The notes under the pieces: generated by a model
Databases searched by the model: none
Told to the model about the DNA's origin: nothing
Seen by the model: the letters and a program-made list of their open reading frames with translations, nothing else
NCBI RefSeq assembly: GCF_001421565.1
Contig: NZ_LMKQ01000001.1
Span: 2,694,322-2,758,321 of the forward strand
Direction of reading: 5' to 3'
Source of the DNA: Agromyces sp. Leaf222
Lineage (GTDB): Bacteria > Actinomycetota > Actinomycetes > Actinomycetales > Microbacteriaceae
Length of the DNA stretch: 64,000 bases
Part shown: positions 36,795 through 37,959 of the stretch, one piece after another
How positions within the stretch are numbered: position 1 is the stretch's first letter
How the letters are laid out: each line of letters starts with the position of its first letter
Translations under genes and position numbers: made by a program

Positions 36795-36863
36795 TGGCGG
36801 ATATACGATCCGCCGCGCCGTGCGCCGCCCGATCCACGCGGTGAGCCGGATCGTATATCCGCC
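36795..36863. repeat. palindrome unit 1 (GGATATACGATCC type)
   Basis: GGCGGATATACGATCCG (36795-36811) is the exact inverse of 36847-36863, with a 35-base GC-rich loop. The AT-rich core stands out in this GC-rich genome. It lies 42 bases beyond the stop of the DUF559 gene and about 50 bases before the dapA promoter. Confidence 0.9.
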
Positions 36864-36905
36864 GTTCTGGACATGCGCGGGCGTTGAATACGCCCTGCTG
36901 TCGGC

Positions 36906-37793
36906 TCAGGCCATGCGCACGCGCTCGGCCCACGGATCGAGGTGAGCGCTCCGGCCGACGGCAGCGAGGATCGCCTGTTCGACCAGCGTCCAGTCGTGCA
37001 CGACGAGCGCGTAGTCGAATCGGAGCGTCGTGAAGCCGTGGGCCGTCGCCACGGCATCGCGCAGGCGGTCTCGGTGACGGTCATCGGGAGTGTCGTGCCC
37101 CGCCCGACCGTCGACCTCCAGGATCAGCCGGTCGCCGAGTACGAAGTCGACCCGTCCGACACCGGGAACCTCGACTTGCGTGCGAAGTGCCAAGCCCAAT
37201 CGGTGCAGCCGGATGCGGAGCAATGATTCGAGGCCGCTCTCGGCGTCGGTGCCGGCGAGGTCGACGAGCCAGCGTGCCGATTCGGTGATCCGGGCTCGCA
37301 ACTCGTTCCGTGCTCCGACGTCGAGCGCTCCGACGTGGAGCGCCGACTCGAGCGTTGCGAAGAAGGCGTCGTCCCCGAGGCATCCGCGAATCTGGAGGAG
37401 GGCGTCGACGAGGGACACCTCGGTCGCAGTTGGAGTCGGGAGGGCGTTCCAGTGCTGCACGCACGCGCAGCGAGCGTGCTCGCGCGCGTGGCCGTTCGGC
37501 GGGAGCGAGACGTGCACGGTCGAATCGAGCGGCAGCACCCAGAGGCCGCGGAGTCGTGCCACCGACACGCAGGCCAGGACTCCCCCGTGCCGAAGGGCCG
37601 TCCTCGTCGAGGACGGCAGGTCTGCGCTCGCATAGAGGCCGGACCTGACCCGGATCACCTCGCCGGTCACGACGGCGCGTCGCAGCGCTCGCACATCGAG
37701 ACCGAGCTGCGCGACATCGCCACGGCGGACCACGCCGCCGAGCTCGCGAGCCAGTCGGCCGATCTCGCCGGGGGTCCACCGCGGACTTCTCAC
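36906..37793 (-). CDS. DUF559 (Vsr-like endonuclease fold) protein with AbiEi-like N-terminal winged helix
   Basis: A 295-residue protein. Residues 10-55 (VRRGDVAQLGLDVRALRRAVVTGEVIRVRSGLYA) resemble the winged helix of type IV AbiEi antitoxins. Residues 185-285 match DUF559, a Vsr/very-short-patch endonuclease fold: E in ESGLESLL, then VDFVLGDRLILEVDG (Asp 216, Glu 226, Asp 228), then RDRLRDAVATAHGFTTLRF. The PD-(D/E)xK-like acidic residues are kept. Such genes are abundant and scattered in actinobacteria, with function unproven. The start is GTG 37793 with no evident SD. It uses more A/T-ending codons than its neighbours. Palindromes at 36795-36863 and 37893-37959 flank it. Confidence 0.82.
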   Translation of the reverse strand: MRSPRWTPGEIGRLARELGGVVRRGDVAQLGLDVRALRRAVVTGEVIRVRSGLYASADLPSSTRTALRHGGVLACVSVARLRGLWVLPLDSTVHVSLPPNGHAREHARCACVQHWNALPTPTATEVSLVDALLQIRGCLGDDAFFATLESALHVGALDVGARNELRARITESARWLVDLAGTDAESGLESLLRIRLHRLGLALRTQVEVPGVGRVDFVLGDRLILEVDGRAGHDTPDDRHRDRLRDAVATAHGFTTLRFDYALVVHDWTLVEQAILAAVGRSAHLDPWAERVRMA

Positions 37794-37892
37794 AGCGACA
37801 GGCTGGACTGGGCGATCAGCGCGAGACGGGCATCCGCGTCGGGAGCCGGAATCGCGGAGCTCCGGGCCAGCCGGGGAGGACGGGTTCGATTC

Positions 37893-37959
37893 GGCGGATA
37901 TACGATCGGGCTCGCCCTGCCTGCGGCGCGTTTGGCGGCGTGCCGGATCGTATATCCGC
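37893..37959. repeat. palindrome unit 2 (GGATATACGATC type)
   Basis: GCGGATATACGATC (37894-37907) is inverted exactly at 37946-37959 with a 38-base loop. The core equals that of unit 1, and CCGGATCGTATATCCGC is shared. It lies 63 bases beyond the dfrA stop and 100 bases before the DUF559 gene start. Confidence 0.9.

Follow-up and report, generated by a model that had tools for sequence, protein, structure and literature searches.

The window analysed here is a stretch of 64,000 nucleotides from Agromyces sp. Leaf222, in which a single gene of the AbiEi_4-DUF559 type, lying between dfrA and dapA, is enclosed by two palindromes that carry the same arm sequence. The gene forms part of the series thyA-dfrA-gene-dapA-rnj, which runs on a single strand throughout, and is separated from the palindromes by 42 base pairs (bp) on the dapA side and by 100 bp on the dfrA side. 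An earlier note on this DNA had described four copies of one core in two inverted pairs around one gene, and this arrangement is exact, GCGGATATACGATC being found four times with the open reading frame at 36906-37793 of the minus strand in between. The features of the unit are listed below, where R1 denotes a covariance model built from 29 gene-flank hairpins.

36796..37959, no strand: complete unit between dfrA and dapA, made up of the AbiEi/DUF559 gene and one palindrome on either side
36796..36863, no strand: dapA-side palindrome, 68 bp, outer arms of 17 bp; 50.0 bits with R1, being part of the training set of 29 hairpins
36797..36810, plus strand: arm GCGGATATACGATC, exact copy
36849..36862, minus strand: arm GCGGATATACGATC, exact copy
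36906..37793, minus strand: AbiEi_4-DUF559 (Vsr/EDxHD-like nuclease) gene, 295 residues, GTG start, TGA stop, defined by open reading frame and Pfam
36939..37253, minus strand: predicted Vsr/EDxHD-like nuclease domain, residues 181-285, with invariant E189, Q206, D216, H233, D242 and W268
37254..37784, minus strand: predicted AbiEi-like part, residues 4-180, a winged helix and the following domain; the more variable part
37894..37959, no strand: dfrA-side palindrome, 66 bp, outer arms of 14 bp; 38.0 bits with R1, not in the training set
37894..37907, plus strand: arm GCGGATATACGATC, exact copy
37946..37959, minus strand: arm GCGGATATACGATC, exact copy

The nuclease gene and its palindromes in the window

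The protein is predicted to join an AbiEi-like fold to a Vsr/EDxHD-like nuclease domain, in agreement with the Vsr-like endonuclease and the AbiEi-like winged helix proposed beforehand. Pfam matches up to E 1 are restricted to AbiEi_4 (E 4e-9), DUF559 (E 5e-7) and MTES_1575, with no match to HUH or Y1 domains. Fold matches point to the same architecture, comprising an AbiEi fold with its N-terminal winged helix and a Vsr-like catalytic domain (residues 182-287) that resembles Vsr/EDxHD nucleases of the I-Bth0305I/Vsr fold. Residues E189, D216, H233 and D242 are unchanged across 50 sequences and may represent the EDxHD motif. Among 26 sequences, the nuclease part has a mean pairwise identity of 0.69, compared with 0.45-0.49 in the other parts. 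The weaker codon adaptation that had been claimed for the gene is present and modest, its third-position GC (guanine plus cytosine) being 0.824 versus 0.893-0.959 in dapA, dfrA, thyA and rnj.

Both window hairpins show further pairing inside their outer arms and strong predicted folds (z -3.3 to -4.7). An Rfam scan yielded only miRNA/sRNA matches far under the gathering scores. Beyond the four arms of the window, no exact copy of GCGGATATACGATC is found in the 4.43-Mb genome. A pattern search for GCGGATATACGATC with up to three mismatches is uninformative, since its six matches in the window compare with 4.8 expected, and thus the evidence resides in the exactness and arrangement of these arms. 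A third hairpin with the same core (1 and 2 mismatches, same arm spacing) stands alone 1.65 Mb away (C1:1081357/1081409, locus L009). The longer arms of this solo hairpin (L009 5345-5440) fuse two arm types, TGTCCGAAATGTCGGA, known around other genes, passing into GGATATACGATCC, and the hairpin is missing from genomes G008 and G059, in a poorly aligned intergenic region.

Co-variation of gene and palindromes across lineages

In a sample of 60 Agromyces genomes, a homolog search gave matches in 56, and the gene occupies the dfrA-dapA site in 31 of the 60 (the 30 best homologs and that of G049). All 30 best homologs adjoin dapA and 29 of them have dfrA on the opposite side, where the contig of the 30th ends; one of the 30, in G009, has an internal stop. 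Model hairpins (E<=0.01) are located on both sides of 27 of these genes and on one side of the other three (L059, L072, L073). The stretch upstream of dapA was then compared in the remaining 30 genomes, two of which (G057 and G005) were left unclassed. G049 has a full-length gene at dapA, G059 a gene split over two frames, and G006 lacks the gene at this site and keeps one hairpin. In 17 of the 60 genomes, the dfrA-dapA interval is reduced to 37-174 bp, with neither a gene remnant (tblastn E<=1e-4) nor a model hairpin (E<=0.05); among these 17, G040 and G055 retain palindrome- or arm-like sequence of other kinds. Hence, the empty sites and the presence/absence variation on which the earlier note had made its idea depend both exist. 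As a separate observation, eight genomes (G008, G037, G012, G029, G044, G031, G018, G002; loci L202, L207, L212, L214, L216, L217, L218, L226) carry only an N-terminal AbiEi-like piece at dfrA-dapA, with no nuclease match, and six of these loci have a dfrA-side palindrome of the type CTCCTGAA...AAGGACG.

The mobile cassette suggested previously can be retained in part. Where the dfrA-dapA site has the gene it has palindromes as well, sites without one lack the other, and close relatives show exchange of the unit. A gene that has recently hopped in this lineage is not supported, since all 30 best homologs lie beside dapA; the dispersed component is the palindromes. The same site bears on a homing-endonuclease-like drive, in which the palindrome would be a long recognition site, the gene would enter an existing palindrome through break repair, so that each side ends up with a copy, and palindromes elsewhere would be targets or scars. 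The unit shares a Vsr-like catalytic domain with the EDxHD homing endonuclease I-Bth0305I and with Vsr, and differs from them in its AbiEi-like DNA-binding part, its intergenic gene and the target-like sequence left intact on both sides. Classical homing destroys the site of its carrier, whereas the palindromes beside this gene are intact and others are maintained at further places in the genome. The 17 gene-less sites provide no model hairpin to home into, and one gene-less site, that of G006, has a hairpin. Such a drive is regarded as quite unlikely.

The hairpins flanking the gene are imperfect and mostly 58-100 bp long. Their outer arms vary by lineage and are alike on both sides of the gene (GCGGATATACGATC, GCGTAGGAGAT, GAGTCAGCGGATG, GAGTCGTCGGGA, CCGAAATGTCGGA), further arm types of the GGATATACGATC and GAGTCNGCGGATGA kinds are likewise tied to gene versions, and an inner stem, GACACGCCG/CGGCGTGTC, is largely common between lineages. 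Because the best inverted repeats listed for the flanks include rows of dapA coding sequence (e.g., left of L058, L059, L067, L068, L072 and L073), hairpins were counted by the covariance model instead. Between close relatives, identity collapses over the unit and recovers in dapA and dfrA. For example, the aligned parts of G014 and G035 share 91.9% identity, while their dapA-dfrA interval drops to 0-75% per 60 bases and their arms differ. The same replacement of the whole unit is found in the pairs G045/G035, G021/G052, G009/G019, G000/G054 and G047/G010 (88.0-90.9% identical over the aligned part), and the version is unchanged in G028/G023, G030/G056 and G011/G025. Across 20 genomes, arm similarity tracks the protein most closely at residues 61-125 (rho 0.39, partial 0.39, p 0.0005) and more weakly at residues 126-180 (rho 0.26, p 0.002) and 10-60 (rho 0.19, p 0.02, partial 0.16), and does not track the relatedness of the species as given by dapA (rho -0.11, p 0.84).

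These hairpins could also be viewed as transcription terminators or RNA-processing hairpins among the thyA-dfrA-X-dapA-rnj genes, as their strong predicted folds and the co-orientation of the genes would suit. In an alignment of 147 hairpin reads, standard pairs occupy 88.5% of the paired cells versus 29-43% when the arms are slid, a figure favoured by the fitting of the reads to the model and by the inclusion of both strands of many hairpins. Nevertheless, departures from pairing on the gene-sense strand of 40 flank hairpin reads comprise 34 G-U and 32 A-C, near-equal numbers which indicate that pairing is kept at the level of DNA and not of RNA. What is kept thus appears to be the symmetry of duplex DNA, with RNA pairing probably not under selection. 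Moreover, the four arms have one sequence in common, which differs from one gene version to another, and the 17 gene-less intervals lack model hairpins. For these reasons, and as the earlier note had argued against simple terminators, the terminator or RNA-hairpin reading is rejected as extremely improbable.

The pairing of gene and palindromes extends beyond the dapA locus. Forty further matches in the genus, 29-46% identical and including the dapA-locus gene of G049 (L126), were examined together with the 27 best-scoring loci of other genera, where 102 of 150 genomes of the family have a match. Exact 8-base words occur as inverted pairs in both flanks of 18 of the 40 genus homologs, compared with 6.4% for mismatched flanks, and of 13 of the 27 from other genera, compared with 2.1%. 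Similarly, among loci with hairpins on both sides, the left-right similarity of the palindromes exceeds the 95% null in 19 of 37 genus homologs and in 18 of 23 from other genera. Thus, matching palindromes stand on both sides of about half of the further genus homologs and of a larger share of those from other genera, and AbiEi-Vsr nuclease genes are paired with private flanking palindromes across lineages and genera. In a further family (G214), matching hairpins are found at one of two loci. A protein search throughout the phylum at E<=1e-12, a strict first pass, gave matches in two Agromyces genomes and one other among the 246 covered.

Dispersed palindromes and their turnover

The exact 13-base core is present in 13 of the 60 Agromyces genomes, mostly as pairs 51-52 bases apart, and its reversed pattern in none of the 60. 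Core arms outside the gene's own flanks are found in all seven genomes with the seven best-scoring homologs, all of that arm type (G000 1, G007 16, G009 8, G014 7, G021 13, G045 18, G047 53), and in 6 of the 53 others (Fisher 4e-6, relatedness uncorrected), while G036 and G001, with homologs of equal identity and other arms, have no core copies. Moreover, with R1 scoring limited to 74 candidates per genome and a hairpin able to count on both strands, hairpins at E<=1e-3 appeared in 54 of the 60 genomes, with a median of 22 hits in the 31 gene-bearing genomes and of 7 in the other 29 (Mann-Whitney 2e-6), a difference that holds after subtracting four flank hits (Mann-Whitney 1e-4).

Dispersed hairpins also resemble the arms of their own gene. 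Of 34 chosen, four without flank rows were dropped, and for 12 of the 30 compared the gene-flank arm of the own genome is the best or equal best, versus 2.5 expected (0 of 2000 permutations). The present gene of G035 belongs to another type, yet this genome has five GGATATACGATC-type hairpins at sites common to G014 or G045, which fits relics of a former specificity.

As a test of prediction, two other genes with some of the longest arms shared between flanks were chosen and their arms counted in whole genomes, the four flank arms being included in the counts. The arm of the G005 homolog has 92 copies in G005, one each in 10 of the 59 other genomes and none in 49; its reversed control gave single hits in 11 genomes, about the same level as the arm outside G005, and none in G005. 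Likewise, the arm of the gene in G190, from another genus, has 53 copies there and one each in two of eight congeners, with none for the control. Together with the seven-genome contrast, these tests speak against palindromes scattered independently of such genes, which the earlier note would have taken as a refutation. In 20 stretches examined, most copies in G005 and G190 form inverted pairs at a distance of 62-66 bp, some of them solitary and others arranged in tandem. Judged by eye, the open frames enclosed by hairpin pairs in G005 (L323-L325) do not resemble DUF559 genes. Two near-identical hairpins about 150 bp apart are also observed in G042 (L237, ~1030-1290).

Movement of the hairpins was followed by flank search at nine singleton sites in two species groups. 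Three of the nine show simple presence or absence, namely L150 (absent from G014 and G035), L157 (absent from G045) and L257 (absent from G028). At the other sites, L282 proved to be present in G028 after all, L154 has a degenerate hairpin in G014, and the flanks of L148, L151, L259 and L283 lie farther apart or only one was located. The present/absent segments suggest that hairpins come and go, slowly. At several single intergenic sites, relatives have different arm types or a degenerate hairpin (L147/L159 vs L166; L279 vs L288; L154 vs L291), as arm conversion or re-insertion would produce, and the differing types at L147/L159 and L166 may reflect conversion of the arms or independent insertion. 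A GATCAGGAA-type hairpin lies inside an open frame of 610 residues in G023, and at the same place in G028 (L282 ~1200-1300, L300 ~531-622); by eye, this frame resembles an acyl-CoA dehydrogenase. In four genomes, a hairpin is located directly upstream of a tRNA-Leu (CAG) gene (L156, L160, L164, L234), possibly a preferred or an old shared site.

Interpretation and comparison with known systems

The gene and its palindromes are read here as a unit of REP/RAYT-like kind whose enzyme is an unrelated nuclease, an interpretation that is modestly favoured. Beside the association and co-variation observed, we infer binding, cutting and spreading by the nuclease, which would proceed as follows. The AbiEi-like part would recognise one private palindrome sequence, and the Vsr/EDxHD-like domain, to judge from its fold and its invariant acidic residues, would nick or cut DNA at that palindrome. 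Palindromes of that sequence, whose amplified copies are seen in gene-bearing genomes, would be multiplied and renewed elsewhere over time with the nuclease as their putative maker. The gene would keep a palindrome copy on each side and stay at a fixed place in this lineage, until lost or swapped for a version of other specificity together with its flanking palindromes, as is seen between relatives, and palindromes of the former specificity would stay behind as relics, as in G035. More broadly, and more tentatively, the AbiEi-Vsr (EDxHD-like) nucleases of Microbacteriaceae might constitute a selfish or domesticated class in which a non-HUH, sequence-specific nuclease propagates its own long palindromic sites; specificity would switch with replacement of the cassette, whereupon new palindromes would grow and old ones decay.

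Several observations weigh against the REP/RAYT-like interpretation. For G023 and G028, the closest pair compared, 12 of the 15 G023 loci with hairpins align with a hairpin locus of G028, which implies slow movement, and the three present/absent segments, of about 100-170 bp, are longer than the hairpins they contain. Some genomes without the dapA-locus gene are rich in hairpins (G006 with 32 hits, G031 with 28 and G040 with 27), G059, without an intact gene, lies within the same range of 26-32 R1 hits, and counts may be low in genomes with other arm types because R1 was built from gene-flank hairpins. Moreover, 18 of the 30 dispersed hairpins are closer to the arm of another genome than to their own. 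Arm similarity is correlated with the nuclease part too (rho 0.23, p 0.01, partial 0.22), so the link between protein and arms is not limited to the DNA-binding part. Among dapA-locus orthologs, an exact four-arm match is found in only 11 of 30, compared with 17% for mismatched flanks, and 0 of 28 exceed the 95% null in similarity score; these paired tests are weak for such orthologs because relatives share arms. Finally, tandem repetition explains some of the copies in G005 and G190 and needs no nuclease, and neither a target-site duplication nor a transposition intermediate was seen, the boundaries being ambiguous at the three present/absent sites. The tandem arrays and the missing intermediate would suit palindromes spread passively by replication or recombination, with the nuclease gene as a hitch-hiker or a settler beside them. 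Nevertheless, arm type matches gene version privately in separate lineages and genera, and passive spread is thus held to be very improbable.

A regulatory role has also to be considered, in which the AbiEi-like part would repress its own gene with the flanking palindromes as operators, and the dispersed ones would be a regulon or chromosome-organising sites, with another role, or none, for the nuclease. The earlier note had raised such a gene with its own operators, and the idea agrees with what is known of AbiEi proteins. These bind inverted repeats of 23 bp within their own promoter, each pair being occupied by two monomers, and four repeats of this kind are bound by Rv2827c (PMC7319586). 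Half-site spacing within some arms speaks for this role as well, since a 6-base half-site is repeated exactly 19 bp apart in 20 of 110 arms (14 of 59 loci, a few arms being counted twice), whereas other spacings reach at most four arms each and shuffles about 3.5. On the other hand, every pair has one palindrome on the downstream side of the gene, up to about 90 arms occur per genome, with tandem arrays among them and one copy inside an open reading frame, the catalytic residues are invariant in the best conserved part of the protein, and gene-less genomes have fewer hairpins. A regulatory system appears unlikely.

The REP/RAYT-like interpretation is best judged against REPIN-RAYT systems (REPtrons), composed of GTAG REPs and tyrosine transposases. 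These also comprise a lone gene flanked by its associated repeat, a repeat family dispersed in the genome as single copies or arrays, and gene-repeat pairs that differ between species (PMC3733652, PMC3116915, PMC8049555), and gene-bearing genomes are richer in repeats (PMC8049555). The REP/RAYT arrangement, in which the palindromic repeat on either side of the gene also recurs at other places in the genome, is found here too. However, the known partner genes of REP repeats encode HUH tyrosine transposases, and CGTC REPs are reported to be without a dedicated transposase (PMC3733652). In contrast, the AbiEi-Vsr unit has no HUH/Y1 match, and thus is not a REP/RAYT member; it carries an AbiEi-like part and a Vsr/EDxHD-like nuclease instead, its repeats are palindromes of 66-100 bp, some with half-sites spaced by 19 bp, and gene and flanking palindromes are swapped as a unit. 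The unit shares the AbiEi fold with the type IV toxin-antitoxin system AbiE, where AbiEi (e.g., Rv2827c) is the antitoxin-repressor, and differs from it in the fused nuclease and in the palindromes on both sides and dispersed. Furthermore, no AbiEii (DUF1814) toxin gene adjoins it among the dfrA and dapA neighbours in the window and at 29 of the 30 loci, distant AbiEii genes not having been searched for. Among the matches listed in the open-access literature searched, no description of an association between AbiEi-Vsr genes and palindromes was found, and the unit looks like an undescribed counterpart of REP-repeat/transposase pairs.

If the broader reading is true, a DNA-binding fold of toxin-antitoxin systems would now serve to read a mobile repeat. 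An unrelated class of nucleases with private palindromes in several genera of one family, whose specificity changes naturally between close relatives, would offer a direct route to how palindromic repeats arise, are maintained and are rewritten. Proteins whose annotation is now confined to 'AbiEi antitoxin domain' or 'DUF559' would gain a role open to testing, and the gene-palindrome pairs provide a natural collection of DNA-recognition domains matched to long target sites.

A minor observation concerns the upstream region of these genes. The motif TCCACA, often TCCACAG, is found on the gene strand within 260 bp upstream at 56 of 97 related loci (L046-L193), mostly at -55 to -135 from the start of the match, and at none of the 97 downstream; on the opposite strand upstream it is found at two of the 97. 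TCCACAG presumably resembles the end of a DnaA box, and a link to replication or a promoter element is possible. In the window, a degenerate form is recognised by eye at 37873-37885.
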